Below, piece after piece: positions 13,348 to 28,788 of a stretch of 37,629 bases of DNA (position 1 is the first letter of the stretch; every line of letters begins with the position of its first letter). A program made the translations under genes and the position numbers. This DNA is from Actinomycetota bacterium (lineage in GTDB: Bacteria > Actinomycetota > Actinomycetes > Actinomycetales > Microbacteriaceae). A model generated the notes under the pieces. It was not told where the DNA came from and did no database searches. It saw nothing but the letters and a program-made list of their open reading frames with translations. The stretch covers positions 1 through 37,629 of the forward strand of contig JAFDWP010000207.1 in assembly GCA_018268435.1 (NCBI GenBank). Reading direction: 5' to 3'.

Positions 13348-13399
13348 GCCCCACGCGCAAGGGTGGCGGGTCGACGACGACAGGCAGGAAGCGGGAAAC

Positions 13400-14851
13400 A
13401 TGGGTGTGCTCAGCGAGGAGATCTCGGCCGGACGGATCTTCACCGGAACGTGGGTCCCGGCCCACGGCGGCACCACCGACGTCCACGACGTCGCGACGGG
13501 TGCGACCATCGGACGCGTCGGCCTCGGCGACGCCCAGGACGTGGACGCGGCCGGACGCGCCGCTCGTGCGGCCCAGCCGGCGTGGGCCGCAACGCCCCCG
13601 TCCGAGCGCGCCGCGATCCTGTTGCGCGCGGCGGACGCCCTGGAGCGGCTGAGCCGGGACGAGCGCGTCCTGCTGCAGCGCGAGGAGGGTGCGATCGCGG
13701 CGAAGGTCGACGGCGAGATCCACAAGTCCGTCGAGGAGCTCCGCGCCGCGGCCGGTCTCGTCGACCAGCCGTACGGTGATCTGCTACCGCACGAGGACCC
13801 GGCGGTCCTGTCGATGGCCCGCCGCGTCCCGGCCGGTGTCATCGGCGTGATCGCCCCGTGGAACGCACCGATGCTGCTCGCGATGCGGTCGGTTGCTCCG
13901 GCCCTGGCACTGGGCAACGCCGTGATCCTCAAGCCGGACGTGAAGACCGCGGTCTCCGGCGGCACCGCGATCGCCCTCGCGTTCGAGGAGGCGGGCCTGC
14001 CCGAGGGCGTGCTGCACGTCATCCCCGGCGGCCCGGAGACGGGCCAGGCGGTCGTCGCCTCGCCGCACACCGACGTCATCTCGTTCACCGGTTCGACGGC
14101 CGCGGGTCGCCGTGTCGGCGAGGTCGCCGGCGGTCTGCTGAAGAAGGTCGTGCTCGAGCTGGGCGGAAACAACGCGCTCATAGTCCTGGAGGACGCGAAC
14201 CTCGACGAGGCGATCGCCGCCGCGGTGTCCGGATCGCTCCTGCACAACGGTCAGATCTGCATGGCCACAGGGCGTCACCTCGTGCACGAGTCGATCGCCG
14301 ACGAGTTCACGCGCCGCCTGCACGCCGCCGTCGCGGCGCTGCCCTTCGGCGATCCGACGGACGCCGCCACCCGCGTCGGCCCGCTCATCAGCGAGCTGCA
14401 GGCCTCCCGCGTGCAGGAGATCGTGGATGCGGCCGTCGCCGGTGGCGCAGAGGTGCTCACCGGCGGGACTCATGAGGGCCCGTTCTTCCGGCCGACCGTG
14501 CTCGACAAAGTCGTCCCGGGCAACGCCGCGTTCGAGCAGGAGATCTTCGGACCCGTGCTGCCGATCGTCCGCTTCACCGACGACGCGCACGCGATCGAGC
14601 TGGCCAACGCGACCCCCTACGGTCTGTCCGCGGCCATCCACACCGGGGACATGTCGCGCGGCCTCGCGCTCGCGGGCAAGGTGCGCACCGGCATGGTGCA
14701 CATCAATGGCATCACCATCAACGATTCCCCGTACGTCCCCATGGGCGGCATGGGGCAGTCCGGCAACGGCGGCCGCTACGGCGGTCATTGGAACCTCGAC
14801 GAGTTCACCAGCACCCAGTGGGTCACCGCGCGCAGCGTCGCTCGCGGGTGA
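13400..14851 (+). CDS. aldehyde dehydrogenase (benzaldehyde dehydrogenase-like)
   Basis: A 483-residue NAD(P)-dependent aldehyde dehydrogenase. Visible motifs are APWN (Asn155), LKPD (Lys178), FTGSTAAG (229-236), ELGGNN (Glu253) and NGQICMATGR (catalytic Cys287). The wording resembles benzaldehyde or salicylaldehyde-type dehydrogenases, so it probably oxidises an aromatic aldehyde to the acid. The ATG at 13400 is chosen for the AGGAAG/GGGAAA site upstream. It is first in an operon with a P450 (35 bp) and an alcohol dehydrogenase. A gapless paralogue lies at 31451-32902. The precise aldehyde is unknown. Confidence 0.88.
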   Translation: MGVLSEEISAGRIFTGTWVPAHGGTTDVHDVATGATIGRVGLGDAQDVDAAGRAARAAQPAWAATPPSERAAILLRAADALERLSRDERVLLQREEGAIAAKVDGEIHKSVEELRAAAGLVDQPYGDLLPHEDPAVLSMARRVPAGVIGVIAPWNAPMLLAMRSVAPALALGNAVILKPDVKTAVSGGTAIALAFEEAGLPEGVLHVIPGGPETGQAVVASPHTDVISFTGSTAAGRRVGEVAGGLLKKVVLELGGNNALIVLEDANLDEAIAAAVSGSLLHNGQICMATGRHLVHESIADEFTRRLHAAVAALPFGDPTDAATRVGPLISELQASRVQEIVDAAVAGGAEVLTGGTHEGPFFRPTVLDKVVPGNAAFEQEIFGPVLPIVRFTDDAHAIELANATPYGLSAAIHTGDMSRGLALAGKVRTGMVHINGITINDSPYVPMGGMGQSGNGGRYGGHWNLDEFTSTQWVTARSVARG

Positions 14852-14886: not shown

Positions 14887-16068
14887 ATGTCCATCCCCAC
14901 CCTGGATGACGTCGACCTCACCGCCGAGGACTACGTCGAGAACCCGCATCCGACCTACGACCGCATCCGCGCGGCCGGCGACGCGGTCTACCTCAGCAAG
15001 CACGACGCGTTCGGCATCGGACGATACGACGCCGTCCGCCAGGTGCTGAGCGATTGGGAGACCTTCAGCTCGGCCCGCGGCATCGCGCTCAACCCGATGA
15101 CCAACGAGGCCACCACCGGCATGATCATCGCGACCGACCCGCCCGAGCACGACGCGCTGCGCGAGGTTCTCGCCGACAAGCTCTCGCCGCGCGCCCTGCG
15201 TGCGCTGAGCGAGGACATCCACGCCCAGGCGAAGGTGCTCGTCGACGATCTGCTCGCCCGGACCACGTCGTTCGACGGCGTCGTCGACCTCGCGCAGTCG
15301 TTCCCGATCCAGGTCGTGCTCGACCTCGTGGGTCTGCCGGCCGACGGTCGCGACGAGGTGCTGCGCTGGGCGGACTCCGCCTTCTCCGCGGCTGCTCCCA
15401 TGAGCGACCGGACGATGGCGGCGTTCCCGCTGCTGCAGGAGCAGCTGGCGTACCTCTCCGGCATCCGCAAGGACGACCTCGTCGAGGGCTCGATGGGGCG
15501 CGCGATCTACGACGCCGCAGAGGCGGGGAAGATCCCGGCGGAGTCGTGCGTCCCGCTGATGTCCGCCTACGTCACGGCGGGCGTGGACACCACGATCAAC
15601 GGAATCAGCAACGCGATCCAGCTCTTCGCGGAGAACCCCGAGCAGTGGGACAGGATCCGCGCCGACCGCTCGCTGCTGAACAACGCCGTCAACGAGATCC
15701 TGCGCTACGACTCGCCGCTGCAGTACTTCTGCCGCGTCGCGACGAAGGACGCCCGGATCGGCGAGGACGAGGTCAAGGAGGGCGACCGCCTTGTCGTGTT
15801 CTACCCGTCCGCCAATCGCGACGAGCGCAAGTGGGGCAACCCGCTGGACTTCGACGTGGCCCGGGAGGACGCGGCGGAGCACCTCGCCTTCAGCTACGGC
15901 GTGCACGGCTGCGCCGGCCAGGGCCTCGCGCGCCTGGAGGCGCACGCGATGCTCTCGGCCCTCGCCGACCGCGTCGAGCGCTTCGAGGTCGGCACGCCCG
16001 AGCGCCGCCTGAACCAGCTCATCCGCGGACTCGCGCACCTGCCGACGACGGTTGTGCTGGCCGACTGA
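14887..16068 (+). CDS. cytochrome P450 (bacterial class I, CYP199-like)
   Basis: A 393-residue soluble P450. The I-helix oxygen-binding motif is AGVDTT (231-236), the K-helix ExxR is Glu270-Arg273, and the heme loop FSYGVHGCAG places the ligand at Cys342. The loop GVHGCAGQGLARLE resembles CYP199-type enzymes that O-demethylate or hydroxylate para-substituted benzoates; this resemblance is by recall. It would need a ferredoxin and a ferredoxin reductase. A ferredoxin gene is at 35849, but no reductase is in the window. It overlaps the next gene by one base (TGATG). A close paralogue is at 36334. Confidence 0.88.
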   Translation: MSIPTLDDVDLTAEDYVENPHPTYDRIRAAGDAVYLSKHDAFGIGRYDAVRQVLSDWETFSSARGIALNPMTNEATTGMIIATDPPEHDALREVLADKLSPRALRALSEDIHAQAKVLVDDLLARTTSFDGVVDLAQSFPIQVVLDLVGLPADGRDEVLRWADSAFSAAAPMSDRTMAAFPLLQEQLAYLSGIRKDDLVEGSMGRAIYDAAEAGKIPAESCVPLMSAYVTAGVDTTINGISNAIQLFAENPEQWDRIRADRSLLNNAVNEILRYDSPLQYFCRVATKDARIGEDEVKEGDRLVVFYPSANRDERKWGNPLDFDVAREDAAEHLAFSYGVHGCAGQGLARLEAHAMLSALADRVERFEVGTPERRLNQLIRGLAHLPTTVVLAD

Positions 16069-17111
16069 TGCGCAGCAGCTGGGCCGACGGGACGCGCAGC
16101 ATCGGCATCGCCGAGGTGGGCGATCCCGAGATCGAGCAGTCGACGGACGTCATCGTCGACGTCCACTTCGCGGCCGTGTGCGGCTCGGACCTCTGGCCCT
16201 ACCGGGGTCTGCTCCCCGGACACCGGGCCGGCAGCACGGGGCACGAGTTCCTCGGCGTCGTGAGCGAGGTCGGTGGCGCCGTCACCGGCCTCGCCCCCGG
16301 CGACGCCGTGATCGCGCCGTTCATGTACTCGGACGGGGCGTGCTCGGCGTGCCGCCACGACCTGCCCTCGCAGTGCGAGCACGGCGGGCTGTGGGGGCGC
16401 GACGGTGCGGGTGCCCAGGCCGAGCGGATCCGAGTCCCGTACGCGGACACGACGCTGGTGAAGCTGCCGTGGGCGATCGACGAGATCACGCCGGAGCGGG
16501 CTCGTGCGCTGCTGCCCCTCGCCGACGTCTTCGCCACGGGCTATCACGGGGCGGTGCTCGCCGGCGTGGGCCCCGGTGACGTCGTCGCGGTGGTCGGCGA
16601 CGGCGCGGTGGGCATCTCCGCCGCCGTCGGCGCACTGATGCAGGGCGCCGCGCGCGTGATCGTGCTGGGGGAGAACCCCGAGCGGCTCGCCGTGGCCGCC
16701 CGGTTCGGCGCGGAGACCCTGCGGGTGAGTCGCGAGGAGTCCGGGGCCGAACGGCTGCGTGCGGCCTTCGACGATCTCGAGGTGGACCGCGTCGTGGAGG
16801 CTGTGGGCATGCAGGGCGCCTTCGACACGGCGCTCGACGTCGTGCGCGTCGGGGGTTCCGTCGGCTTCGTCGGCGTGCCCCACGCCGTCGAGCCGATCGC
16901 GCCCATGCGCCTGTTCGGCAAGGCGCTGCAGCTCGCCGGCGGCACGGCGCCCGCGCGGCGCTACCTCGACGAGTTCGTCGCCGCCACGATCGCGGGCGAT
17001 CTCGACATGTCGGCGCTCATCGACCACACCTACGCCTTCGACGACATCGCCGAGGCGTATCGGGCGATGGATGCGGGGGAGACCCTCAAGGCGATGCTCG
17101 TCATCCGCTGA
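16068..17111 (+). CDS. zinc-dependent alcohol dehydrogenase (MDR family)
   Basis: A 347-residue medium-chain dehydrogenase. The catalytic zinc site is Cys38 (VCGSD) with His59-Glu60 (GHEF). The structural lobe has Cys92, Cys95 and Cys103, three of the classical four cysteines, as in the threonine-dehydrogenase-like branch. The Rossmann motif is GDGAVG. It probably oxidises an aromatic alcohol, or a one-carbon by-product of demethylation, with NAD(P). Its ATG overlaps the P450 stop codon, so the two are coupled. A strong terminator follows. Confidence 0.87.
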   Translation: MRSSWADGTRSIGIAEVGDPEIEQSTDVIVDVHFAAVCGSDLWPYRGLLPGHRAGSTGHEFLGVVSEVGGAVTGLAPGDAVIAPFMYSDGACSACRHDLPSQCEHGGLWGRDGAGAQAERIRVPYADTTLVKLPWAIDEITPERARALLPLADVFATGYHGAVLAGVGPGDVVAVVGDGAVGISAAVGALMQGAARVIVLGENPERLAVAARFGAETLRVSREESGAERLRAAFDDLEVDRVVEAVGMQGAFDTALDVVRVGGSVGFVGVPHAVEPIAPMRLFGKALQLAGGTAPARRYLDEFVAATIAGDLDMSALIDHTYAFDDIAEAYRAMDAGETLKAMLVIR

Positions 17112-17223: not shown

Positions 17224-17252
17224 TTGACGCCCTTCACGCAAACAAATAACAA
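17224..17252 (+). promoter_or_regulatory. promoter of the ten-gene catabolic operon
   Basis: TTGACG (17224-17229) and TAACAA (17247-17252) are separated by 17 bp in an unusually AT-rich patch. The start codon at 17290 follows about 30 nt after the predicted start site, with GGAGGAAC-like bases (about 17279-17285) as ribosome-binding site. Confidence 0.6.
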
Positions 17253-17278
17253 TAAGACAATTCGTACGACGGAGTGCG
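17248..17278. promoter_or_regulatory. candidate GntR/FCD operator, copy 1 (two-part)
   Basis: AATAAGACAATT (17251-17262) abuts the -10 box and is followed by CGTACGACGGAGTGCG (17263-17278). The first element recurs inverted at 28748-28759. The second recurs with 14 of 16 matches, in the same orientation, at 28773-28788, before the RraA operon. Overlap with the start of transcription suits a repressor, most likely the GntR protein at 27990. Confidence 0.55.
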
Positions 17279-17289: not shown

Positions 17290-18249
17290 ATGGGCGACAT
17301 TTCGCAGGGTGGTGTGCAGGTCATCACCGGGCAGCAGGACTTCAAGATGGCGGCGCGCCGCTTCGCCAGCGGCGTCACCGTCGTCACGACGCGACTGGAC
17401 GACGACACGGTGCACGGACTGACGGTCTCGTCCTTCGCCAGCCTGTCGCTGAACCCGCTGCTGGTCACCGTGTCGCTGCTGGCCGAGAGCCGCATGCTGG
17501 AGTTCGTCCGCCGGAGCGGGCACTTCGCCATCAGCATCCTCGCTGAGCACCAGCAGGACGTCTCCGGCTACTTCTCGCAGCGCGGCCGCGAGCCGCAGGT
17601 GAGCATGTTCGAGGGCATCGCTTCGGACGTCCAGGTCACGGGGGCTCCCGTGATCGCCGACGCCGCGGCCTACTTCGACTGCACCGTGCACGAGATCATC
17701 CCCGGTGGCGATCACGAGATCCTGGTGGGCAGCGTGGTGGCGTCCGGCGGCAGCCAGGCCAAGCCGCTGCTGTACTTCGACGGCGGCTACCGCAGCCTTC
17801 CGGATCTCGCAGACAGCATGCAGGTCCAGGTGCGACTGGCCGGCCTCGAGGCCGAGGAGATCGCGCAGACGCAGACGGCGCTGGACCCGGCGGTCGCGGC
17901 GCTCGCCGCCGAGCACGCCACCGACGAGGACATCCGGGTGCTGCGCGCCCTGCTCGACGAGGAGAGCGCCGCCTTCGACGACCAGGAGCGCTTCACGGCT
18001 CTCGGCATGCAGTTCCACGTCGCGATCGCGCAGGCGTCGGGCAACCGGTTCCTGCACGCCTCGCTGGAGGCGATGCGCCGGGAGCGCCAGGCGCTGTTCG
18101 CGCCGCGCAACGAGGTCGCCAAGGCGCAGCGCTCCCACGACTTCCACTGCCGGGTCGTCGAGGCCATCGAAGCGCGCGACCCGGAGGCCGCGCGCGCCGT
18201 GATGGCCGCGCACGTCGGTGTGATCGGGGAGCGTCTGCGCGCCGGCTGA
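17290..18249 (+). CDS. flavin reductase fused to a GntR-type FCD sensor domain
   Basis: A 319-residue two-domain protein. Residues 15-170 form an HpaC/RutF-like flavin reductase (FASGVTVVTT, TVSSFASLSLNPLLVTVSL, FDGGYRSLP) that would supply reduced FMN or FAD to the hydroxylase encoded next. Residues 178-315 form a complete FCD domain, the ligand-binding half of FadR-type GntR regulators, but there is no winged-helix DNA-binding part. The three FCD histidines are present (His243, His286, His308), while the usual Asp four residues before the first is Gly239. Hand alignment with the regulator at 27990 gives 30 identities in 57 residues. The fusion suggests that the aromatic substrate or a metabolite controls reductase activity. 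A functional parallel is the C1 reductase of Acinetobacter 4-hydroxyphenylacetate hydroxylase, whose extra C-terminal domain is MarR-like and senses the substrate. Confidence 0.85.
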   Translation: MGDISQGGVQVITGQQDFKMAARRFASGVTVVTTRLDDDTVHGLTVSSFASLSLNPLLVTVSLLAESRMLEFVRRSGHFAISILAEHQQDVSGYFSQRGREPQVSMFEGIASDVQVTGAPVIADAAAYFDCTVHEIIPGGDHEILVGSVVASGGSQAKPLLYFDGGYRSLPDLADSMQVQVRLAGLEAEEIAQTQTALDPAVAALAAEHATDEDIRVLRALLDEESAAFDDQERFTALGMQFHVAIAQASGNRFLHASLEAMRRERQALFAPRNEVAKAQRSHDFHCRVVEAIEARDPEAARAVMAAHVGVIGERLRAG

Positions 18250-18295: not shown

Positions 18296-19789
18296 ATGAC
18301 AGACACTCAGACCCGCACCCCGTTCGAGCAGGTGCTGCTCGCGGACGGCCCGGGAGCGATGACAGGCGAGCGCTACAAGGAATCCTTGCGCGACGGTCGC
18401 GAGGTGTGGCTCAACGGTGAGCGCATCGAGGACGTCACCACGCACCCGGCGTTCAAGGGCACCGTCGACCGTCTCGCCGAGCTCTACGACATGCAGAACA
18501 GCGATGAGCTGCGCGACACCATGACGTACGTCGACGACGAGACCGGCATCCGCATCAGCAAGTCGTACCTGCTGCCGCGCACGCTCGACGAGCTCAAGGA
18601 GAAGTACGCCAACAGCCACGCCTGGATGCGCAGCACCTGGGGCCAGCTCGGACGCTCCCCGGACTACATGGCCAACGTCGTCGTGGGCCTCTACGACTTC
18701 CGCGACGAGCTGGAGGCCAACCGCCCCGGCTTCGGTCAGAACGCCGTGGACTACTGGAAGCACTGCGCCTACAACGACCTCGCGCTCACGCACGCGCTGG
18801 GCGACCCGCAGATCGACCGCAGCAAGTCGGTTCTGGACGACCCCGACCAGGGCCTGAAGATCATCGAGGAGCGCGAGGACGGCATCGTCGTCCGCGGCGC
18901 CAAGCAGCTGGCCACCCTCGCGCCGCTGTCGAACGAGGTGCTCTCCTACCTCTCGGCGAGCTTCGCCGTCCGCGAGGCCGAGGAGTACGTGCTGTGGTTC
19001 GCGCTCCCGATGAACGCCCCGGGACTGAAGATCCTCTGCCGCGAGCCGCTGGGCGACCACCAGCACGGCCACGCGCACCCCCTCGCCCGTCAGTACGACG
19101 AGCAGGACTCGATGCTGTTCTTCGACGACGTGTTCATCCCGTGGCAGCGCGTGTTCCTCATGCACGACGGCCCGCTCGCGCTCAACGGACTGCGCCGGAT
19201 CACCCCGTGGGCCGGCTACAGCTCGCACATCCGCTTCGAGCAGCGAATGAAGACCTATCTCGGGGTGGCCTCGCTGGCCGCCGACGCGATCGGCGTCTCC
19301 GGTTTCCGCAACATCCAGGAGCAGCTGGGCGAGATCACCTCGGTCGTCGAGATCGCACGACTGCTGACCCTCGCCACGGAGGCGCAGCACAAGGTCACCC
19401 CGGGTGGTCTCGTCGCGCCGGTCAGCTCGGCCGCGGTGGGCGTCTACTCCGCCAACATCTCCAGCCGCGTGCAGGAGATCCTGCGCAAGATCGCGGCGTC
19501 GGGACTGCTCATGCAGCCCACCCAGAAGGATCTGGAGAACCCGGAGCTGCGTCCGTTCCTGGACAAGTACATGAAGGGTGCCGACGGACTGGGCGTGGAG
19601 GAGAAGTCCCGCATCTTCCGCCTCGCCTGGGACCTCGCCGGCGACGGCTTCGGGCAGCGCCAGGAGCTGTACGAGTACCTGCACCGCGGCGACGTGGCCC
19701 GCAACCTGATCGGCCTCTACCACCGCTACGACAAGTCCGAGATCATCGGCCGCATCCAGGAGCTGGTCTCCTCGCCGCTGCCCGAATGA
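18296..19789 (+). CDS. flavin-dependent monooxygenase, 4-hydroxyphenylacetate 3-hydroxylase (HpaB/PvcC) family
   Basis: A 497-residue oxygenase component of a two-component flavin hydroxylase. The HpaB N-terminal signature is clear: MTGERYKESLRDGREVWLNGE, then SHAWMRSTWGQLGRSPDYMANVV. The acyl-CoA-dehydrogenase-like core follows. These enzymes use reduced flavin and oxygen to hydroxylate a phenol ortho to its OH group. The reductase is encoded 46 bp upstream. A GAGGAG ribosome-binding site precedes the ATG. The product would be a catechol-type substrate for the extradiol dioxygenase downstream. The actual phenol (hydroxyphenylacetate, hydroxybenzoate, chlorophenol or other) cannot be told from sequence. 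Confidence 0.9.
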   Translation: MTDTQTRTPFEQVLLADGPGAMTGERYKESLRDGREVWLNGERIEDVTTHPAFKGTVDRLAELYDMQNSDELRDTMTYVDDETGIRISKSYLLPRTLDELKEKYANSHAWMRSTWGQLGRSPDYMANVVVGLYDFRDELEANRPGFGQNAVDYWKHCAYNDLALTHALGDPQIDRSKSVLDDPDQGLKIIEEREDGIVVRGAKQLATLAPLSNEVLSYLSASFAVREAEEYVLWFALPMNAPGLKILCREPLGDHQHGHAHPLARQYDEQDSMLFFDDVFIPWQRVFLMHDGPLALNGLRRITPWAGYSSHIRFEQRMKTYLGVASLAADAIGVSGFRNIQEQLGEITSVVEIARLLTLATEAQHKVTPGGLVAPVSSAAVGVYSANISSRVQEILRKIAASGLLMQPTQKDLENPELRPFLDKYMKGADGLGVEEKSRIFRLAWDLAGDGFGQRQELYEYLHRGDVARNLIGLYHRYDKSEIIGRIQELVSSPLPE

Positions 19790-19826: not shown

Positions 19827-20204
19827 ATGACAGCAGTGACACAGCGGGTCCACGTCGGACCTGACTCCGACTTCGAAGAAGGCTCGCGCAAGATCGTCGA
19901 GGTCGAGGGCAAGCGCGTCGGCGTCTTCAAGTTCCGAGGCGGCTATCTGGCCTACCTCAACATCTGCCTGCACCAGGGCGGTCCGGTCTGCGAGGGGCAA
20001 TACTTCCCGCGCACGACCGCCGAGGTGGGCTCCGGCGGAGAGCTGATCGCGGAGGGGTCGGACTTCGACGCACCGCGGCTGGTCTGCCCGTGGCACGGCT
20101 GGGAGTACGACCTGGCGACGGGTGAGCACGTCGCCGACAAGAACTACGCACTGAAGAAGTACGACGTTGTCGTCGAGAACGGAGACGTTTATGTCCAGTA
20201 TTGA
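19827..20204 (+). CDS. Rieske [2Fe-2S] protein, orphan
   Basis: A 125-residue Rieske protein. The cluster ligands are Cys47 and His49 in CLHQGG, and Cys87 and His90 in CPWHGW. The loop between the two boxes (about 37 residues) is longer than in plain ferredoxins and resembles the N-terminal domain of ring-hydroxylating oxygenase large subunits. No oxygenase catalytic domain, beta subunit or reductase is nearby, so its electron donor and acceptor are unknown. It lies between the hydroxylase and a small unknown protein whose start overlaps its last 14 bases. That context points to a subunit of an operon-encoded enzyme rather than a free ferredoxin; this is inference. Confidence 0.85.
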   Translation: MTAVTQRVHVGPDSDFEEGSRKIVEVEGKRVGVFKFRGGYLAYLNICLHQGGPVCEGQYFPRTTAEVGSGGELIAEGSDFDAPRLVCPWHGWEYDLATGEHVADKNYALKKYDVVVENGDVYVQY

Positions 20205-20517
20205 CCTCTCGGTCCGGGCGCAGAGCCTGACCGAACTGGCTGACCAGCTCGAGAGCATCAACGCCACCGCGGACACGGCGGACCTCCCGGTGGAGGACAT
20301 GCAGCGCGTCTTCACCGCGGCGTTCCACCTCTACTCCCGCCTCGCCGAGGAGCGCGGGATCGGTGACCCCTTCACCCCGACCAACGGCATCACCGCGACC
20401 CAGGTCGTCACGACGGCGTTGGCGATCCTTCACGCGCAGAACCTCGAGGTCTTCGAGCTCGCGCTGTGGCAGTCGTGGGGCGGCGCCCCGTGGAAGAACC
20501 AGGAGGCCGGGGCATGA
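20191..20517 (+). CDS. small conserved-looking protein of unknown function
   Basis: A 108-residue acidic, mostly helical protein. I do not recognise a family. It has no Cys, no membrane segment and no signal peptide. The C-terminal half contains GITATQVVTTALAILHAQNLEVFELALWQSWGG. The ATG at 20191 overlaps the Rieske gene by 14 bp, and its TGA overlaps the amidohydrolase ATG (ATGA), so the three are probably made in fixed ratio. It could be a small subunit of the Rieske or amidohydrolase enzyme. It does not resemble the alpha subunit LigA of protocatechuate 4,5-dioxygenase. Confidence 0.75.
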   Translation: MSSIDLSVRAQSLTELADQLESINATADTADLPVEDMQRVFTAAFHLYSRLAEERGIGDPFTPTNGITATQVVTTALAILHAQNLEVFELALWQSWGGAPWKNQEAGA

Positions 20518-21755
20518 GCCGCGAGCTGTACACCCGAAGCAACGTGTGGGTGGAGAACACCCTCTCCAACGCCCGCGAGCAGGCCGCCGAGCGCGGCTAC
20601 GACGACTTCCTGATCATCGACGTCGACGCGCACCACTACGAGAACCGCGCCTGGGTGGACATCGTGCCGTTCATGGAGGACGGTCCGATGAAGGAGTGGG
20701 CGACCGCCCAGGTCTACCGCGGCAGCACGAACGGCCAGGGCGGGAACGCCTCGGCCGCCCTCACCGGCGTCCAGATCGGCAACCAGGAGGTGGGCGGACG
20801 CATCGTGCGCGCCGGCCGCAACTTCAAGGATGCCGTCACCGAAGCCGACGACGAGCGGCACTACGACGTCGTCCGCATGCTCTGGGCCATGGACAACATG
20901 GGCGTGGACTACACGGTCATGTTCCCGACCCCGATGCTGAACCTCGGCATGCACCCGCAGATCGAGGCGGAGGTGTCCCTGGCCCGCGCCTACAACCGCT
21001 GGCTGACGCAGGTGCTGCTGCCGCAGGACGACCGCATCAAGACGATGATCTACCTGCCCTTCAACGACCCGAAGGCGGCGCTGGAGTTCGTCCACGAGTT
21101 CGGTCACCTGGACTCCGTGGTCGGCTTCATGGTCACGAGCGTGCGCAACCGCATGGTGCACCACAACGACTACGCGCCGGTGTACTCCGCGATCCAGGAC
21201 CTCGGCAAGCCGCTGGCCTTCCACGCGGCCTACAACTGGAACGAGCCGAGCCTCGCGCAGCTGAACAAGTTCATCTCGATCCACGCGCTGGGCTTCACCA
21301 CCAGCAACATGGTGCACCTGACGAACTGGATCATCAACGGCCTGCCCGAGCGCTTCCCGAAGCTGGACGTGCTCTGGATCGAGAGCGGTCTGGCCTGGAT
21401 CCCGTTCATGATGCAGCGTCTGGACAACGAGTACATGATGCGCGCCTCCGAGGCGCCGCTGCTGAAGAAGCTGCCGAGCGAGTACATGCGCGACATGCAC
21501 TTCTCGACGCAGCCGATGGAGCTGCACCACAACGAGAAGGCGCTGGAGGTCACCTTCGAGATGATGGACGCCCCCAACCGTCTGCTGTTCTCGTCGGACT
21601 ACCCGCACTGGGACTACGACCTGCCCTCGACGATCTACGACCGTCCCACCCTCAGCGAGGAGGACAAGCGCAAGATCCTCGGCGGCAACGCCCAGCGACT
21701 GTTCAAGCTGCCGGACGGAGTGCGCAAGAAGCTCTCCCGTTCCACGGACTGGTAA
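20514..21755 (+). CDS. amidohydrolase-family (Amidohydro_2/ACMSD-like) protein
   Basis: A 413-residue TIM-barrel metal-dependent enzyme. The N-terminal metal motif reads IDVDAHHYEN, the D-x-H-x-x-E form (Asp38, His40, Glu43) rather than HxH. Further ligands are likely in FHAAYNWNEP (His) and SSDYPHWD (Asp). ACMSD-like enzymes decarboxylate aromatic or ring-cleaved acids, or hydrate or hydrolyse them. Its start overlaps the small protein gene, and the LigJ-like gene follows 14 bp later. An N-terminal extension of about 30 residues precedes the barrel. Decarboxylation of a ring acid or cleavage product is a fair guess, not a demonstration. Confidence 0.8.
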   Translation: MSRELYTRSNVWVENTLSNAREQAAERGYDDFLIIDVDAHHYENRAWVDIVPFMEDGPMKEWATAQVYRGSTNGQGGNASAALTGVQIGNQEVGGRIVRAGRNFKDAVTEADDERHYDVVRMLWAMDNMGVDYTVMFPTPMLNLGMHPQIEAEVSLARAYNRWLTQVLLPQDDRIKTMIYLPFNDPKAALEFVHEFGHLDSVVGFMVTSVRNRMVHHNDYAPVYSAIQDLGKPLAFHAAYNWNEPSLAQLNKFISIHALGFTTSNMVHLTNWIINGLPERFPKLDVLWIESGLAWIPFMMQRLDNEYMMRASEAPLLKKLPSEYMRDMHFSTQPMELHHNEKALEVTFEMMDAPNRLLFSSDYPHWDYDLPSTIYDRPTLSEEDKRKILGGNAQRLFKLPDGVRKKLSRSTDW

Positions 21756-21769: not shown

Positions 21770-22777
21770 GTGATCATTGACATCCATGCGCACCTGAGCT
21801 CGCCCCCGGAGCTGTACGCCTACAAGGGCGCGCTGCTCTCGCACCGAGGCGCACACGGTCGCGGCGCCGTCTCCGTGACCGATGACCAGATCCGCGAGGC
21901 GTACCAGAAGCCCAATGCGAGCTTCGGGAACATCTCGCACCTCGAGCACATCGACGGTGCGGGCATCGACATGCAGCTGCTGTCCCCGCGGCCCTACGCC
22001 GCGGGGCACAGCGAAGAGCCGGCCAAGCTCGTGCAGTGGTACACCGAGGAGACCAACAACCTCATCGCACGATCCGTCGAGCTGTTCCCGGATCGCTTCC
22101 GCGGGGTGGCGGGGCTGCCGCAGTCGCCGTCGGTCTCGCCCGCGCAGTGGACCCAGGAGCTGCGCCGCACGGTGCGCGAGCTCGGGTTCGTCGGGGCGCT
22201 GCTGAACCCGGACCCGATGGAGGGCACGCATCCGCCGAAGCCTCCGCTGGGGGATCGGTACTGGTATCCGGTCTGGGAGGCGCTCGTCGAGCTCGGCGTG
22301 CCGGCGCTCGTGCACTCGGCCGGGTGCAAGCCGCCGGCGCGCGAGTCGTACAGCATGCACTTCCTGGTGGAGGAGACCATCAACCTCGTCAGCCTGGTCA
22401 ACTCGAAGGTCTTCGAGGACTTCCCGGAGCTCAAGGTGGTCTTCTCCCACGGCGGCGGGGCCATCCCGTACCAGGTGGGCAGGTTCATGCCCGGCGCGCT
22501 GCGGCACGGGAAGACGTCCTTCATCGACAAGATGCGCAACGTCTACTACGACAGCTGCCTGTACACGCAGGACGCCCTGGAGCTGCTGATCCGCACGGTC
22601 GGCGCCGACCGGGTGCTGTTCGGATCGGAGAAGCCGGGGACCGGGTCCTCGATCGATCCGGCCACCGGCCGCTGGTTCGACGACATCCACCTGCTGCTCG
22701 CCGACATCGACTGGCTGACGCCGGCCGAGCGCGAGCAGATCCTGAGCGGGAACGCACGCGAGCTGTTCCGGCTCTAG
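21770..22777 (+). CDS. amidohydrolase-family hydratase, LigJ (4-oxalomesaconate hydratase)-like
   Basis: A 335-residue protein starting at GTG 21770, which is preceded by a strong GGAGGAGG site. The metal motif HAH is at residues 6-8. LVHSAGC, VFSHGGGAIPYQVGR and LFGSEKPGTGSSIDPATGRWFDD resemble LigJ-type 4-oxalomesaconate hydratases, where Glu replaces the usual amidohydrolase Asp in the GSE motif. LigJ adds water to 4-oxalomesaconate to give 4-carboxy-4-hydroxy-2-oxoadipate in the protocatechuate 4,5-cleavage and gallate pathways. The neighbouring LigB-type dioxygenase and the RraA-type aldolases supply the preceding and following steps, so the context agrees. Confidence 0.75.
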   Translation: MIIDIHAHLSSPPELYAYKGALLSHRGAHGRGAVSVTDDQIREAYQKPNASFGNISHLEHIDGAGIDMQLLSPRPYAAGHSEEPAKLVQWYTEETNNLIARSVELFPDRFRGVAGLPQSPSVSPAQWTQELRRTVRELGFVGALLNPDPMEGTHPPKPPLGDRYWYPVWEALVELGVPALVHSAGCKPPARESYSMHFLVEETINLVSLVNSKVFEDFPELKVVFSHGGGAIPYQVGRFMPGALRHGKTSFIDKMRNVYYDSCLYTQDALELLIRTVGADRVLFGSEKPGTGSSIDPATGRWFDDIHLLLADIDWLTPAEREQILSGNARELFRL

Positions 22778-22812: not shown

Positions 22813-23823
22813 ATGGCTGAACTCATTCTCGGCGCGGGCACGTCACACGGACCGATGCTGGTGACACCCCCGGAGCGCTGGGACCAGCGCGCGCTGGCGG
22901 ACCGGAAGAACCGGTCGCTGAACTACCACGGACGCAACCACGACTTCGAGGAGCTCCTGGCGTTGCGTGCGGGGGAGGGGTTCGCGGAGCAGGTGACGCT
23001 CGAGCTGCATCGGGAGCGGTATGCGCGCGTGCTCGCCGCGGTGCAGAAGCTCGGCGAGCAGATCCTCGCCGCGGACCTGGATGCGCTCATCATCGTCTCG
23101 AGCGATCACAAGGAGATCTTCGACGACGAGCTGCTGGCCCCGTTCAGCGTGTACTGGGGCGAGAGCATGCAGCACATGCCGGTGAACGAGGAGTCCCTGG
23201 CGAAGATGGGCCCGGGGCTCGCGCTCTCCGCACACGCGTACGCGCCCACCGAGCCGACGACGATCGCCGGCGTGCCGGACCTCGGCCGAGCGATCATCGA
23301 TCACTCGCTCGAGGCCGGTTTCGATATCGCGTCCTCGCTGCGCCTTCCGCCGGGCAAGCACGGCAACCACGCGCTGCCGCACGGCTGGGGGTACATCCTC
23401 GAGCAGGTGCTCGGCGGCACGCGGCTGCCCATCGTGCCGATCTTCGTCAACACGTTCTGGAGCCCGACTCCGCCCACAGCCCGGCGCTGCTACGCGTGGG
23501 GGCAGGAGATCGGCGCGGCGATCCGCGCCTGGGACTCCACCGCGCGGGTGGGCATCATCGCCTCGGGCGGCCTCAGCCACATGGTCATCGATGAGGAGCT
23601 CGACGCGCGGGTGCTCGAGGCGCTGCGCACCGACGACGGGGAGGCGCTCGGCGCCATCCCGTCCACGTGGCTGGAGAGCGGCTCGTCGGAGATCCGCAAC
23701 TGGATCGTCACGGCCGGCGCGATGTCCGGTGCCGGTCTCGAGTTCGACCTGCTGGACTACGTCCCGCTGTACCGCTCGGAGGCGGGCACGGGCAACGCGG
23801 CGGGATTCGCCCTGTGGCATTGA
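22813..23823 (+). CDS. class III (LigB-type) extradiol ring-cleavage dioxygenase
   Basis: A 336-residue protein of the LigB family, which uses non-heme Fe(II) to cleave dihydroxylated rings next to the hydroxyl pair. Expected active-site residues are His12 (TSHGPM), His99 (SSDHKEIF), His186 or His190 (GNHALPHGWG), His256 (GGLSHMV) and Glu293 (SSEIRNWIVTAGAM). It is a single-chain form with no LigA-type small subunit next to it. The ATG at 22813 follows AAAGGAAAG. It ends 2 bp before the importer genes. Possible substrates are protocatechuate, gallate, O-methylgallate or a homologue. Confidence 0.85.
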   Translation: MAELILGAGTSHGPMLVTPPERWDQRALADRKNRSLNYHGRNHDFEELLALRAGEGFAEQVTLELHRERYARVLAAVQKLGEQILAADLDALIIVSSDHKEIFDDELLAPFSVYWGESMQHMPVNEESLAKMGPGLALSAHAYAPTEPTTIAGVPDLGRAIIDHSLEAGFDIASSLRLPPGKHGNHALPHGWGYILEQVLGGTRLPIVPIFVNTFWSPTPPTARRCYAWGQEIGAAIRAWDSTARVGIIASGGLSHMVIDEELDARVLEALRTDDGEALGAIPSTWLESGSSEIRNWIVTAGAMSGAGLEFDLLDYVPLYRSEAGTGNAAGFALWH

Positions 23824-23825
23824 CG

Positions 23826-25610
23826 ATGATGCCGGAGTCGCCGCCGACCAGCCCGGCGACGGCGACGATCCGCCGACCCAACCAGCGCCGGCTCGCGCCG
23901 GCACGGCTGCCGCGCGCCACCCGGGTGACGCTCGGCGTCCTCTTCGCCCTCGTCGCCCTGCTGTTCGTCGGGCCCGTGGTGATGCTCGTCGTGGGCGCGT
24001 TCCGCACGGCCCCTCCGGGACAGGAGGGCACCTGGTCGGCCGAGTCCTTCCTCGCTGCCTGGAGCAGCCCGCGCACCCTCGCCGTCCTCGGCGCCACCAT
24101 CCTGCTGGCGGTGATCGTGACGGTCGTCTCGGTCGCCGTCGCGGTGGCGATCGTGTATGTCGTCACCCGCACCGATGCGCCGGGGCGCCGCTTCGTCACG
24201 CCGCTGATGGCCGTGGCCTTCGCCACGCCGACGCTGTACTTCGCGATCAGCTGGGGGATGCTCGGCAACAAGCAGGTCGGGCTGCTCAACGGAGTGCTGG
24301 GCGCCGTGACCGGCGCCGACGTCCACCTGATCGACATCAACAACTGGATCGGCGTCGGCTTCGTGATGGCGCTGAAGATGGTGGCCTCGCACTACATGCT
24401 CTTCATCGGACCGTTCTCGGCGATCGACAGGTCGCTCGAGGAGGCGTCGCAGGTGTCGGGCGGCGGGCGCCTGCGCACCTTCGTGAACGTCACGATCCCG
24501 GTGATGGCGCCGACCATCACCAGCGTGATGATCCTCGGCTTCGTCATCTCGCTCGGCGCGCTCGACACGCCCCTCGTGATCGGCACCCCGGCCGGCATCG
24601 AGGTGTTCAGCAGCCGCATCTTCGGGTTCATCCGCTTCGAGGCGTCGCCCGACTACGCGGGAGCCAGCGCCCTGTCGATCTTCCTCGCCGTGGTGATCGT
24701 CGCGGTGGTGCTGCTGCAGCAGATGTCGCTGAGCAAGAAGAACTTCACGACGATCACGGGGAAGTCCTACCGCACCGACCCGTGGCGGCTCGGGCGCTGG
24801 CGTCAGCCGGCGAGCGCGGCCGTGGGCCTCTACTTCGTGCTCGCCCTCGTCCTGCCGCTGATCCAGCTGTTCCTGGGATCGCTGCAGCCGATGTTCGGAC
24901 TCTGGGGCAGCCTGGGCTTCGGGAACTACGCCAAGATCTTCGCGCGCCCGGACCTCAGCCAGGCGGTGGCCAACACCATCACGCTGGGCGTCGGCGGCGG
25001 CTTCGCGGCCATGACCATCGCGTTCGTGCTGCTGATGATCGCGCGCCGCTTCCCGGGACGCCTCACCCGCACCATGCTGCTGGTGACGTGGCTGCCATGG
25101 GCGCTGCCCGGCGTCGTCCTCGGCCTCGCGATGTCGTGGGCGTACCTCTCGGTGCCGGGACTGAAGTCGCTGTACGGCTCCGTCGCGCTGCTCGGGATCG
25201 CGCTCATGGTGGCGGTCGTGCCGCTCGCGGCGCGGTCCCTGGAGGGGCCGCTCGCCGGCATGTCGTCCGAGCTGGAGGAGTCTGCGCGCACGAGCGGCGC
25301 CGGCGCCCTGGCGACCGCGGTGACCGTCACCGTGCCGCTGCTGGCGCGCAGCTTCCTCAGCGGCTGGTTCATCACCGGCCTCGTGATCGCGTCGAACTTC
25401 GACGTGCCGCTGCTGCTGTCCACGGCCTCGAATCCGAGCGTCCCGGTGATCGCGTACCAGCTCTACACCCAGGGCGATACCCCGCTCGCGGCCGCGCTGT
25501 TCTGTCTCCTGCTGGCGATGATCGCGGTCGGCTACGTACTCATCACGGCGGCGACGGCACTCATCCGCACCATCAACCGCGCCGCGCGCGCCTCAGGACA
25601 GGAAGGCTGA
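23826..25610 (+). CDS. ABC importer, fused double permease (FbpB/ThiP-like)
   Basis: A 594-residue membrane protein with two binding-protein-dependent permease domains in one chain and about twelve hydrophobic segments. The cytosolic EAA-type loops are SLEEASQVSGGGRLRTF (first half) and ELEESARTSGAGALATA (second half), each with the conserved Glu-Ala/Ser and Gly. This layout is usual in FbpB/ThiP-type iron, thiamine or phosphonate importers. Here it is buried in a catabolic operon, with 2 bp to the dioxygenase and 1 bp to the ATPase, so it more likely imports the aromatic substrate. ATG at 23829 is an equally possible start. Confidence 0.87.
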   Translation: MMPESPPTSPATATIRRPNQRRLAPARLPRATRVTLGVLFALVALLFVGPVVMLVVGAFRTAPPGQEGTWSAESFLAAWSSPRTLAVLGATILLAVIVTVVSVAVAVAIVYVVTRTDAPGRRFVTPLMAVAFATPTLYFAISWGMLGNKQVGLLNGVLGAVTGADVHLIDINNWIGVGFVMALKMVASHYMLFIGPFSAIDRSLEEASQVSGGGRLRTFVNVTIPVMAPTITSVMILGFVISLGALDTPLVIGTPAGIEVFSSRIFGFIRFEASPDYAGASALSIFLAVVIVAVVLLQQMSLSKKNFTTITGKSYRTDPWRLGRWRQPASAAVGLYFVLALVLPLIQLFLGSLQPMFGLWGSLGFGNYAKIFARPDLSQAVANTITLGVGGGFAAMTIAFVLLMIARRFPGRLTRTMLLVTWLPWALPGVVLGLAMSWAYLSVPGLKSLYGSVALLGIALMVAVVPLAARSLEGPLAGMSSELEESARTSGAGALATAVTVTVPLLARSFLSGWFITGLVIASNFDVPLLLSTASNPSVPVIAYQLYTQGDTPLAAALFCLLLAMIAVGYVLITAATALIRTINRAARASGQEG

Positions 25611-25611
25611 C

Positions 25612-26715
25612 ATGGCCGGAGTAACGATTTCCTCGCTCGGCAAGGCCTACGGCGACAACACGGTGATCGAGGGGCTGGACATCGACGTCCGCGACGGCGA
25701 GTTCCTCACCCTGCTCGGACCGAGCGGGTGCGGCAAGACCACGACCCTGCGCTGCGTCGCGGGGCTGGAGCAGCCGAACGAGGGCAGCATCGCGATCGGC
25801 GCGGACCCCGTGTTCGACGCCGCGGCAGGACGCTTCGTGCAGCCGCAGGACCGTCGAGTCGGCATGGTGTTCCAGAGCTATGCGCTGTGGCCGCACATGA
25901 GCGTGGAGCAGAACGTCGCGTATCCGCTGCGCATGCAGCGCATCAAGAAGGCCGACGCCCGTCCGCGTGTGGCCGAGGCGCTGGAGATGGTCGGGCTGGG
26001 CGAATTCGCCCGGCGACCCGCCACCGCGCTCTCCGGCGGGCAGCAGCAGCGCGTCGCGCTGGCACGCGCGATGGTCAGCAAGCCCGAGGTGCTGCTGTAC
26101 GACGAGCCGCTGAGCAACCTGGACGCGAAGCTGCGCGGACAGATGCGCAACCTCCTGCTGCGCCTGCACCGCCTGGTTCCGACGACGTCGATCTACGTCA
26201 CGCACGACCAGGTCGAAGCGATCACCCTGTCCGACCGCATCGTGGTGATGCGCGATGGTGAGATCGCCCAGGTGGGCACGCCCCGGGAGATCTACACCCG
26301 CCCGGCGAGCCCGTTCGTGGCCGACTTCCTCGGCTTCGACAACATCGTGGCCGCGACCGTGGTGGCGGCCGACGACGACGTCAGGCGGGTGCGCCTGGAG
26401 GACGAGGACGTCGAGTTCGATGCGGCGACCGTGGCGGGCGAAGTCGGCATCGGCGACGAGGTCGCGCTCGCGGTGCGCGCGGACCGGCTGCGGGTGAGCA
26501 CCGCCGTCGAACGCCCGTCCCGCGAGGCCGTGGCCGCCTCGGTCGGCTATGTGGTCTACCTCGGCGACGAGTTGGAGATGGGTCTTCGCGTGGGCTCCAC
26601 GCGCTTGACCTCGAGGGTGTCGGCTTCGGCACTCGGTGCAAACGTGCCCCATCAGGGGGACGACGTGTGGTTGACGATCGCGGCGGACGACATCGTCGTC
26701 CTCCCGCCGCAATGA
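25612..26715 (+). CDS. ABC importer, ATP-binding subunit
   Basis: A 367-residue ATPase. It has Walker A GPSGCGKT, a Q-loop in VFQSYALWPHM, the signature ALSGGQQQR, Walker B VLLYDEPLSNLD and the switch His in YVTHDQVEA. A C-terminal extension of about 120 residues is a TOBE_2 regulatory domain, as in PotA/FbpC-type subunits. It would form a dimer under the fused permease and drive import. Start ATG lies 1 bp after the permease stop, with AGGAAGG as ribosome-binding site. Confidence 0.92.
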   Translation: MAGVTISSLGKAYGDNTVIEGLDIDVRDGEFLTLLGPSGCGKTTTLRCVAGLEQPNEGSIAIGADPVFDAAAGRFVQPQDRRVGMVFQSYALWPHMSVEQNVAYPLRMQRIKKADARPRVAEALEMVGLGEFARRPATALSGGQQQRVALARAMVSKPEVLLYDEPLSNLDAKLRGQMRNLLLRLHRLVPTTSIYVTHDQVEAITLSDRIVVMRDGEIAQVGTPREIYTRPASPFVADFLGFDNIVAATVVAADDDVRRVRLEDEDVEFDAATVAGEVGIGDEVALAVRADRLRVSTAVERPSREAVAASVGYVVYLGDELEMGLRVGSTRLTSRVSASALGANVPHQGDDVWLTIAADDIVVLPPQ

Positions 26716-26731
26716 GAGAAAGCAGCGCGAC

Positions 26732-27868
26732 ATGAAAACGTACGACAGGCTCCTGCGGGCACTTCCCGTCGTGGCCGTAGCAGCCCTCGTCCTCACCGGC
26801 TGTGGGGGCGCGGCCGTCGGGGACACCTCCGGCGGTGACGCCGGCGCGAGCACCGCCAGCGCGGATCCGGTCGAGGCGCTGGGAGGACAGGCGGCGGCGG
26901 ACCAGCTCGCAGAGCTCTACGACGCGGCGAAGAAGGCCGGCGAGAGCTCGGTCACCATCTACGGTCCGTCGGATCAGGCCCTCGCCGACGCCGGCCTGTA
27001 CAAGCGCTTCACCGACCGCTACCCGGGCATCAGCGTGAACATCGTCACGACGTTCGGCGCGGAGATGGACCAGAAGGTGACGAACGAGGCGGCCTCCGGC
27101 AACGCCGTGGGCGACGTCGTGCACACCGGTACGACGGTCATCAAGTGGGCGAAGGCGGGCCTGCTGCAGAAGTTCGAGCCGGTGGGGGCGAAGGATCTGC
27201 CGGCGGAGCTCGCGAGCCCGGACGGCTACTACTTCGGCAACCAGTTCGGGGCCATCGGCTTCATGGTCAACACCTCGAAGATCTCGCTGGACAAGGCGCC
27301 GAGTAACTGGGAGGACCTCGCGGACAAGAAGTTCTCCGGCACCTACGCCATGACCAACCCCTCGGGGGCGGGCTCGCTGTCGGACATCTTCGCGACGCTG
27401 GCGTTCGCCGGCCTCATGGACGAGTCGGACTTCGCGGCGATCAAGGCGAACGATCCGCTCGTGGTGGGATCGACCGACCTCGCCGTGCAGGCGGTCGTCA
27501 CCGGGGAGCGCCCGGTGGCCATCGGGATCGGCATGACCGCGTTCCTGAAGGCCAAGGAGGCCGGGGCGCCCGTCGACTTCGTGTTCCCGATGAAGGGCAA
27601 GACCCCCGTCGTCGTGACGAATGTGGGCGTGCTGACGCATGCGCCGAACCCCAATGCGGCGAAGCTGCTCGCGGCGTGGCTGTTCACGCCCGAGGCGGCG
27701 GCGGCACTCCCTGCCGGCGGCCTGTACGGCACCCGCGCGGACAGCCCGGCACCCGAGGGCTTCCCGAAGCTCGTCGAGTCCGACCTGGTGCTCCCGCCCC
27801 CGGCCGAGGCCATCAGCGACAACACCAAGAAGACGCTCGCGATGCTGGCGAAGCTGTTCGCCGAATGA
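26732..27868 (+). CDS. ABC importer, substrate-binding lipoprotein (FbpA-like)
   Basis: A 378-residue extracellular solute-binding protein. The signal peptide ends in the lipobox LTGC (Cys24), so it should be lipid-anchored on the outer face of the membrane. A Gly/Ser/Ala-rich linker follows. The mature domain, starting near residue 60 (SVTIYGPSDQALADAGLYKRF), has the family 1/FbpA-type fold found in iron and aminoethylphosphonate binders. The paired tyrosines typical of iron-binding FbpA are not obvious near the C-terminal part, which leaves room for an organic ligand. It is the last gene of the catabolic run before the regulator. Confidence 0.87.
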   Translation: MKTYDRLLRALPVVAVAALVLTGCGGAAVGDTSGGDAGASTASADPVEALGGQAAADQLAELYDAAKKAGESSVTIYGPSDQALADAGLYKRFTDRYPGISVNIVTTFGAEMDQKVTNEAASGNAVGDVVHTGTTVIKWAKAGLLQKFEPVGAKDLPAELASPDGYYFGNQFGAIGFMVNTSKISLDKAPSNWEDLADKKFSGTYAMTNPSGAGSLSDIFATLAFAGLMDESDFAAIKANDPLVVGSTDLAVQAVVTGERPVAIGIGMTAFLKAKEAGAPVDFVFPMKGKTPVVVTNVGVLTHAPNPNAAKLLAAWLFTPEAAAALPAGGLYGTRADSPAPEGFPKLVESDLVLPPPAEAISDNTKKTLAMLAKLFAE

Positions 27869-27989: not shown

Positions 27990-28709
27990 ATGACCCCCGA
28001 CGTTCGGCTCCGGGCCGAGAACGCGCCCACCTGGGGTGCGGTGCGGCCTCGCCGCCTCTCGAGCGAGGTGGTGGAGCAGATCATGAAGACCACCCTCGAG
28101 CGGCTGAAGCCCGGAGAGTGGCTCGGCAGTGAGGCCACCCTGGCGGCGGAGTTCGGGATCTCGCGGGTGACCTGCCGCGAGGCCATCCGCGAGCTCGAGG
28201 CCAAGGGCGTCGTCGAGGTCAAGGTCGGTGCGGACGGGGGCATCCGCGTCGCCCGGCCCCAGCCGACGCGCGTGGCAGAGGTGCTCGGAGTGCAGATGCA
28301 CCTGCTGGAGATCTCGCACGACGAGATCGTCGGCGCCCAGCGCGCCCTGGGCCCCGCGGCGGCGTCCCTGGCGGCGCAGAACGCCACAGATGAGGACATC
28401 GCCGATCTCCGCCGCCTGGTCGATGCGCAGGAGGCCGCGATCGGGGACCGTCAGCGCTTCACCGAGCTGGGGATGAATCTGCACGCCCGCATCGGTGAGG
28501 CCAGCGGCAACCGGATCATCTCGATCATCCTCAACGCGATCGATCCGCTGGATCATTCGGCGTTCTCGGCGCGCGCGGACGACGTGCGCAGCTCGCGGAT
28601 CGTGGACGCGCACCGCAGCGTGGTGGACGCCATCACGGCGCACGACGTCGAGGCCGCGGCCGCCGCCATGTCGTCGCACCTGGCCAACTTCGGCGCCGAC
28701 ACCCCCTGA
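27990..28709 (+). CDS. GntR-family regulator, FadR/FCD subfamily
   Basis: A 239-residue repressor-type protein. The winged helix covers about residues 22-88 (SSEVVEQIMKTTLERLKPGEWLGSE, ISRVTCREAIRELEAKGVVEV). An all-helical FCD ligand domain covers about 100-232. FCD histidines are His165, His208 and His230, but the usual metal-binding Asp is Gly161, exactly as in the reductase-linked FCD domain at 17290. The protein probably controls the catabolic operon and the RraA operon through the motif shared by their promoters, and is released by a pathway compound. The -10 box and hairpin upstream allow separate expression. Confidence 0.9.
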   Translation: MTPDVRLRAENAPTWGAVRPRRLSSEVVEQIMKTTLERLKPGEWLGSEATLAAEFGISRVTCREAIRELEAKGVVEVKVGADGGIRVARPQPTRVAEVLGVQMHLLEISHDEIVGAQRALGPAAASLAAQNATDEDIADLRRLVDAQEAAIGDRQRFTELGMNLHARIGEASGNRIISIILNAIDPLDHSAFSARADDVRSSRIVDAHRSVVDAITAHDVEAAAAAMSSHLANFGADTP

Positions 28710-28747: not shown

Positions 28748-28788
28748 AATTGTCTTATTATTTTATTTAACTCGCACGACGGCGTGCG
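28748..28788. promoter_or_regulatory. candidate GntR/FCD operator, copy 2 (two-part), RraA operon promoter region
   Basis: AATTGTCTTATT (28748-28759) is the exact reverse complement of the element at 17251-17262. It is followed by AT-rich DNA and then TCGCAC-GACGGC-GTGCGA (28772-28789), a perfect 6-6-6 inverted repeat that matches the second element at 17263 in 14 of 16 positions. It lies 20-60 bp before the first RraA-like gene. The promoter itself is not clear; the AT-rich tract could hold the -10 box. Confidence 0.55.

Follow-up and report, generated by a model that had tools for sequence, protein, structure and literature searches.

A flavin reductase joined to an FCD domain without a winged helix, encoded beside an HpaB-type oxygenase gene in an actinobacterial genome

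Introduction

A reductase of a two-component hydroxylase that runs without substrate consumes NADH to no purpose and may generate peroxide. Substrate gating of the flavin supply has been studied in C1, the reductase of p-hydroxyphenylacetate hydroxylase, whose C-terminal MarR domain, according to the accessible part of PMC10816480, binds the substrate and relieves self-inhibition, making flavin reduction at least 30-fold better. C-terminal helix-turn-helix parts are described as general among the 4-chlorophenol, 4-fluorophenol and 4-nitrophenol reductases, with substrate recognition as their expected role, in the available portion of PMC6205950. Fusing regulator parts to the C-terminus of a flavin reductase is a recurrent kind of arrangement, and its general idea is known. 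The fusion described here, first noticed in the DNA sequence, is therefore no isolated oddity, as these reports and the fusions of reductases with whole regulators found in the present analysis show. Its new element is an FCD domain without the winged helix on a flavin reductase, of which no description was found among the titles listed from the open-licence literature, a search result that does not imply absence from print overall; PMC6016940, which has both flavin reductase and FCD domain in its text, appears from its title and abstract to be unrelated.

A flavin reductase followed by an FCD domain

The gene lies within the window, by which we mean the whole stretch of 37,629 nucleotides that was analysed (Table 1). 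It forms a single uninterrupted frame on the forward strand, from an ATG at 17290, directly preceded by a Shine-Dalgarno-like GGAGG, to a TGA at 18247-18249. In Pfam, the product matches PF01613 (Flavin_Reduct) at residues 23-170 (1.2e-40, 139.5 bits against a cut-off of 27) and PF07729 (FCD) at 190-309 (9e-24, 84.7 bits against a cut-off of 24.3), the latter being nearly full-length, with profile positions 1-123 of 125 covered. No other Pfam family was found at 1e-3, neither a helix-turn-helix family nor MarR; the winged helix expected N-terminal of the FCD in GntR/FadR regulators is absent, and the reductase domain occupies its place. Against solved structures, phmmer aligns residues 8-184 with flavin reductases and residues 181-317 with regulators of the GntR family. 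HpaC-type flavin reductases typically carry a GDH motif, and GGDH at 139-142 is invariant in both proteins of this architecture (flavin reductase followed by FCD, here FR-FCD) found so far, the second being described below. The protein is an HpaC-type flavin reductase with an FCD and without a DNA-binding part, as the original prediction had it; the FCD bounds given there (178-315) are slightly wide relative to the Pfam match, and fit the stretch of homology to the GntR regulator encoded in the window.

An AlphaFold2 model of the whole fusion, built on a six-row alignment, reached a mean pLDDT of 78.9 and a pTM of 0.55. Its N-terminal half is rich in strands, and six helices are bundled at the C-terminal end, over 188-318; blocks 91-110 and 161-190 are weaker, and the mutual placement of the two domains is not reliable. 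A predicted likeness to C1 was found in a Foldseek search with this model, in which C1 (5zyr) came first, over 320 columns, though with a TM by query of 0.36 and an rmsd of 14, followed by SMa0793. Flavin reductases or oxidoreductases made up all of the best 50 matches, and a search with the whole model is for this reason silent on the FCD.

Table 1. Positions of the fusion gene and of surrounding features in the window
Feature	Position	Strand	Remarks
Aldehyde dehydrogenase	13397..14851	+	64% to G511 cluster member
Zinc alcohol dehydrogenase	16068..17111	+	60% to G511 cluster member
Promoter-like TTGACG - 18 nt - AACAAT	17224..17253	+	consensus match only; ends 36 bp before fusion ATG
Operator-like 12-mer AATAAGACAATT	17251..17262	+	overlaps -10-like hexamer; 27 bp before ATG 17290
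FR-FCD fusion gene	17290..18249	+	319 aa; flavin reductase 23-170, FCD 190-309; Pfam, homologue, models
Linker helix and FCD, residues 172-319	17803..18246	+	Pfam, alignment, model; candidate metal ligands H243, H286, H308
HpaB-type oxygenase	18296..19789	+	497 aa; Pfam and sequence; 46 bp downstream of fusion gene
Rieske ferredoxin	19827..20204	+	125 aa; Pfam
Amidohydro_2 protein AmH1	20514..21755	+	start approximate; Pfam
Amidohydro_2 protein AmH2	21803..22777	+	start approximate; Pfam
LigB-type extradiol dioxygenase	22852..23823	+	Pfam
ABC importer	23718..27868	+	permease to 25610 (start uncertain), ATPase 25612-26715, binding protein 26732-27868
GntR/FCD transcription regulator	27990..28709	+	239 aa; FCD 43% to fusion's
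Second copy of AATAAGACAATT	28748..28759	-	between GntR-FCD gene (just downstream) and RraA1
RraA-like aldolase 1	28809..29468	+	
RraA-like aldolase 2	29465..30106	+	by homology to G511; 29465 one candidate start
RraA/LigK-like aldolase 3	30103..30732	+	

A homologue in a second genome

Among 366 genomes of the genus, including the window's own, a match over both domains was found in two, the window's and a second one, here called G511, assembled as one contig of 3.6 Mb and 99% complete. The G511 homologue (E 1.2e-72) is 47% identical over 16-314, has no stop, and contains Flavin_Reduct at 33-179 and FCD at 212-332, the FCD scoring 78.4 bits against the same cut-off. Since the window's genome is a draft of 308 contigs (3,343,802 bases), a frameshift, a misassembly or a misread stop could in principle have joined a reductase gene and a regulator gene. 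The recurrence of the architecture on a single contig refutes this for the architecture, GC3 is even across the joint (0.94 and 0.95), and the probability left to an artefact is negligible.

In the 33 kb around the G511 fusion, HpaB (56%), AmH2 (63%), LigB (48%) and the alcohol dehydrogenase (60%) are kept in a rearranged order, together with three stretches resembling RraA and two aldehyde dehydrogenases, whose identity to the window's enzyme is 64% and 42%. A search of this region at 1e-3 found no counterpart of the Rieske protein, the P450s, the ABC ATPase or the binding protein. The sole GntR match within these 33 kb is the fusion itself. The same holds for the best match to the window's GntR regulator on the whole G511 contig (34%, FCD only); the next is 30% identical at 8.7e-15, and among the matches listed none exceeds 34%, so that no convincing orthologue was found. 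G511 keeps the fused FCD without such an orthologue, and the job of this domain is therefore independent of the window's GntR; judged from the gene content, the FCD appears to persist in G511 where only an enzyme role is obvious. The G511 cluster also contains a gene for a PucR-type regulator (L029:5656-6963, minus strand), and a FAD_binding_3 hydroxylase gene adjoins its fusion gene (L029:15233-16933, plus strand).

Fold, kinship and candidate metal site of the FCD

Modelled alone on a two-row alignment, residues 172-319 gave a pLDDT of 82 and a pTM of 0.79. In this structure prediction, a check that the original prediction had proposed, the part takes the fold of GntR effector domains: the first four Foldseek matches are NanR, DhdR, PdhR and again DhdR, with a TM by query of 0.69-0.76. 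Sixteen matches have E <= 0.001, and the best 50 of 176 matches are transcription regulators, among them NanR, DhdR, PdhR, Atu1419 and FadR. The matched folds are inducer-binding domains, including those of DhdR and NanR in ligand complexes, which supports a ligand-binding reading.

The FCD of the window's GntR regulator, which is encoded 10 kb downstream of the fusion gene and does not figure in the original prediction, is 43% identical to that of the fusion, with homology spanning fusion residues 164-313. Two further FCD regulators occur in stretches with LigB homologues, making three with that of the window: the cluster regulator of the Aminobacter plasmid pSR1 (34-36% to the fusion, 37-42% to the window's GntR) and a regulator of genome G046 (35% to the fusion, 40% to the window's GntR), the match to which lies 1.6 kb from the LigB homologue. 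These identities place the fusion's FCD in a subfamily found in regulators beside LigB homologues.

In the metal-binding subgroup of GntR/FadR regulators, the metal site of the FCD comprises an Asp or Asn and three His, and the His residues of Atu1419 bind zinc and hold three helices, as stated in the accessible text of PMC7797058. By our own alignment, H243, H286 and H308 of the fusion, located in helices 232-249, 276-294 and 298-318 of the whole-fusion model, would correspond to these zinc-binding His, and all three are kept in both FR-FCD fusions. Because the residue at the Asp/Asn position (239) is Gly in the window's fusion and Ala in that of G511, a metal-dependent pocket may be altered; the position is also Gly in the window's GntR and Ser in the G046 regulator. 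In the cluster regulator of Aminobacter, His is missing from the second and third metal positions, so the metal site is not fixed in the FCD subfamily.

Dimerisation is a further property of FCDs and leaves room for roles that need no ligand. The fused domain might only dimerise or dock, holding reductase dimers together or bringing the reductase to HpaB without any ligand, a reading consistent with the position of FCDs in dimer interfaces of GntR regulators (PMC7797058, in its accessible part), with the likely activity of reductases of this type as homodimers, and with the Gly or Ala substitution, which could mark a lost ligand site. We nevertheless find it rather improbable: neither fusion has lost any of the three metal His, regulators of related clusters carry FCDs of the same subfamily, and in the C1 system reduced flavin can diffuse without protein contact, according to the available portion of PMC10816480.

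The partner hydroxylase and its neighbourhood

The gene encoded next, 46 bp downstream, is indeed that of an HpaB-type hydroxylase, as anticipated. Among proteins of known structure, the closest to it in sequence is Thermus HpaB (2yyg, 6.7e-90), with which it has GRSPDY and THAL in common, stretches that we take to hold the residues named R100, Y104 and H142 in the accessible part of PMC10816480. It scores under the curated HpaB-1 cut-off (375 against 480 bits), so the substrate of the hydroxylase may differ.

The LigB, Amidohydro_2 and RraA/LigK homologues suggest a gallate- or protocatechuate-like meta cleavage pathway; a pyridine pathway (PMC7356986, known to us in part) was considered as an alternative for the cluster. 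The three RraA-like aldolase genes at window 28809-30732 lie in different frames, and a long frame at 29476-30732 hides the second; the Aminobacter cluster likewise has three RraA-like stretches, as does G511. Further downstream are a third Amidohydro_2 gene and a second P450 gene (window 32967-34220 and 36304-37509). In the pSR1 cluster of Aminobacter sp. SR38 (L031), AmH1 (52%), AmH2 (49%), LigB (40%) and RraA (43%) have counterparts, and neither HpaB nor the reductase domain of the window's fusion has a match there. Aminobacter plasmids hold the related LigB, amidohydrolase, Rieske and RraA genes together with a gene for an FAD-dependent oxidoreductase. In G046, the GntR/FCD regulator is encoded near a LigB homologue (50%; L056:10310-13608), and its 19.9-kb stretch has no match to the reductase domain or HpaB.

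An operator-like 12-mer and the GntR regulator

The upstream region of the fusion gene was compared with six others, and the 12-mer AATAAGACAATT was found post hoc in this way. At up to one mismatch, exactly two copies are present in the 3,343,802-base genome, both within the window, and none of a reversed-pattern control; with up to two mismatches allowed, the expectation for the window is 0.03 copies. The GntR gene itself has no copy in front of it, and none was found at up to two mismatches in the G511, Aminobacter and G046 stretches. The G046 regulator gene is preceded by a one-mismatch match to the 10-mer core, with two more such matches within its stretch. FadR-type sites often have TKGT/ACMA boxes and NanR sites are direct repeats, according to the accessible part of PMC4494728; the TTGT of the 12-mer fits one half-box only. 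We infer that the window's GntR protein binds both copies.

With both operator-like sites in the window, two FCDs that are 43% identical, and a fusion that lacks a DNA-binding part, the fusion could act as an anti-repressor, titrating the GntR protein through FCD-FCD heterodimers and thereby coupling the enzyme level to induction. The retention of the fusion in G511 without a convincing GntR orthologue disfavours this as the main role, and we hold it to be very improbable. A more far-reaching reading, which we think possible though doubtful, is that the pathway's transcriptional sensor was copied onto the enzyme, one metabolite both releasing GntR from the operon and switching on the supply of reductant to the hydroxylase.

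Origin of the fusion

Three other proteins look, from their sequences, like reductases fused to a whole GntR/FCD regulator (here FR-wHTH-FCD). One from the same family as the window (L019:1411-2619) has Flavin_Reduct and FCD (6.7e-14), with no Pfam match in the stretch between. Another from the same order (L040:859-2157, minus strand) has FCD (8.5e-11) and a weak GntR match (0.0024), and its residues 224-415 match the GntR regulator 3fms over 8-192 of 209; its gene adjoins that of a luciferase-like monooxygenase. The third, encoded on a Dietzia lutea plasmid (WP_108849405.1; L048:6001-7191), has FCD (4.1e-9) and GntR (1.9e-7).

In the reductase tree, a stand-alone reductase (L024) joins the two FR-FCD proteins in a supported clade (100/99), and the winged-helix types fall in another (100/100), which includes a stand-alone Bacillus badius reductase. 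On the reductase domain, a single group of all five FCD-bearing fusions is rejected (p-AU 3.6e-5), which supports the predicted independent invention with respect to the FR-wHTH-FCD proteins. Derivation of the fusion from an FR-wHTH-FCD protein by loss of the winged helix was rejected, the reductase clades being apart; with the FCD data alone, in which long branches were flagged, a common group for the FCDs of all fusions is not rejected (p-AU 0.403). A single origin of the two FR-FCD fusions is not rejected by the reductase (p-AU 0.124) or by the FCD (0.432). Because L024, the nearest stand-alone reductase, is placed within the clade of the fusions (91/89), vertical retention of a single fusion is not proven.

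In the FCD tree, both FR-FCD fusions fall among regulators, namely the window's GntR, the G046 regulator, two FCD proteins of the window's own genome (C299 and L006) and the Aminobacter cluster regulator, a group split from FR-wHTH-FCD at 97/94 and poorly resolved inside. Pairing of the window's FCD with the window's GntR has a p-AU of 0.316, and the pair is not in the free tree. A first FCD tree of 12 rows paired the long-branched own_L004 with the fusion (91/85); the second, of 10 rows, left out own_L004 and own_L007. The second reductase tree retained 20 of the 26 rows of the first, without L010, L013, own_L005, L020, L037 and the YC-RL1 protein.

Occurrence

Beyond the genus, a match over both domains was found in the window's own genome only in the family (one of 100 genomes, cut-off 1e-20), class (one of 394, 1e-30) and phylum (one of 396, 1e-40) samples and, with a three-row model, in the order sample (one of 297, 1e-42); the genome samples overlap, and each sample centred on the window's genome contains it. 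In the class of an Aureimonas genome, none of 115 genomes had both domains, and nine had a reductase match at 1e-32, ending at or before model position 199. Two sets without a positive control gave none either, the class of a gammaproteobacterial genome (0 of 114 at 1e-32) and 197 class genomes searched with A3 (0 at 1e-55). Of 72,556 plasmid records, 834 had some match and none reached 80% coverage. An A1 pattern gave 72 matches in viral contigs, none of them a relative, and a scan of genome contigs gave four loci with frames of 162-180 aa, none with an FCD. Such both-domain searches would miss more diverged fusions, as L019 from the family sample and L040 from the order sample illustrate, both of which were recognised as FCD fusions only from their frames.

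Only two FR-FCD fusions were found in the genome samples searched, and between them the FCD diverges faster (34%, 50/146, linker included) than the reductase (57%, 88/155), as would suit a vestigial or neutral domain that remained after a reductase gene and a regulator gene had fused by chance. A domain free of constraint should decay, however, and at 34% identity this one is nearly full length, scores above the Pfam cut-off in both proteins and keeps its His residues; we judge this reading quite unlikely.

Proposed function

On balance, and by analogy with C1, we think it somewhat probable that the FCD responds to a compound of the pathway by binding it, and in this way adjusts the reduction of flavin for the HpaB-type hydroxylase. 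Further points in favour are the nearly full length of the FCD and the three candidate metal His that both fusions retain even though the FCD is less conserved than the reductase, the kinship of the FCD with regulators beside LigB homologues, and its persistence in G511. The fusion would be the reductase half of a two-component flavin hydroxylase with the HpaB encoded at 18296 as its partner, and its reductase domain, from the activity of its family, would reduce flavin with NADH for HpaB. The FCD may bind a small pathway molecule, either the compound that the hydroxylase acts on or a carboxylic or aromatic intermediate close to it. Ligand binding would alter flavin reduction or release, most likely by relieving inhibition, such that NADH would be spent and oxygen-reactive reduced flavin made only with substrate present. 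Activation by the substrate, as in C1, seems more likely than product inhibition.

If the FCD gates the reductase, this would show that gating has evolved more than once through the recruitment of ligand-binding halves from pathway regulators. A gated FCD-bearing reductase would offer an enzyme readout to find ligands of orphan FCD regulators, as well as a modular part for substrate-gated biocatalysis. If one sensor does act at both levels, flavin reductases would have taken up sensors of transcription factors several times: MarR, GntR/FCD on at least two occasions, and perhaps IclR.

Comparison with known reductases

Several flavin reductases carry C-terminal extensions of other kinds. L021:805-2151 (minus strand) and L020:1225-2649 (plus strand) encode extensions of about 230 aa, the former with a weak IclR_C match (2.8e-4, under the Pfam cut-off) and the latter similar by eye, with no Pfam match. 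SMa0793 of Sinorhizobium meliloti (3rh7), which we take to be the S. meliloti 2011 gene L039, has an extension without a Pfam match at 0.1. The FR-wHTH-FCD proteins combine a reductase and an FCD in one chain, as the fusion does, but have an extra stretch between the two that is absent from the window's protein.

On plasmids of Pseudarthrobacter chlorophenolicus A6 and Arthrobacter YC-RL1, 259-aa reductases (L047:7965-8744 and L049:5965-6744) show a weak winged helix without an FCD, their genes lying near those of an HpaB-type oxygenase, an intradiol dioxygenase and a maleylacetate reductase. The A6 protein, recorded as 'flavin reductase', is identified by us as CphB from its cluster and the accessible part of PMC6205950. 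Like the fusion, CphB has a GntR-like regulator piece at the reductase C-terminus and an HpaB-type oxygenase gene nearby, whereas it is 259 aa long, has a winged helix (a weak Pfam match, under the cut-off) and no FCD match, and belongs to a different reductase clade. The A6 and YC-RL1 proteins would thus carry the half of a GntR/FCD regulator opposite to the FCD of the fusion.

C1 of Acinetobacter baumannii (5zc2, 5zyr) resembles the fusion in joining a flavin reductase to a C-terminal domain of a transcription-factor family, in length (315 against 319 aa) and in being a reductase for a two-component hydroxylase. Its partner prefers FMNH-, according to the available part of PMC10816480, while that of the fusion is nearest to Thermus HpaB. 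The sequence match to C1 extends only over fusion residues 16-171, and the C-terminal domain is MarR in C1 and FCD in the fusion, a difference of sensor family that supports the predicted independent invention with respect to C1.
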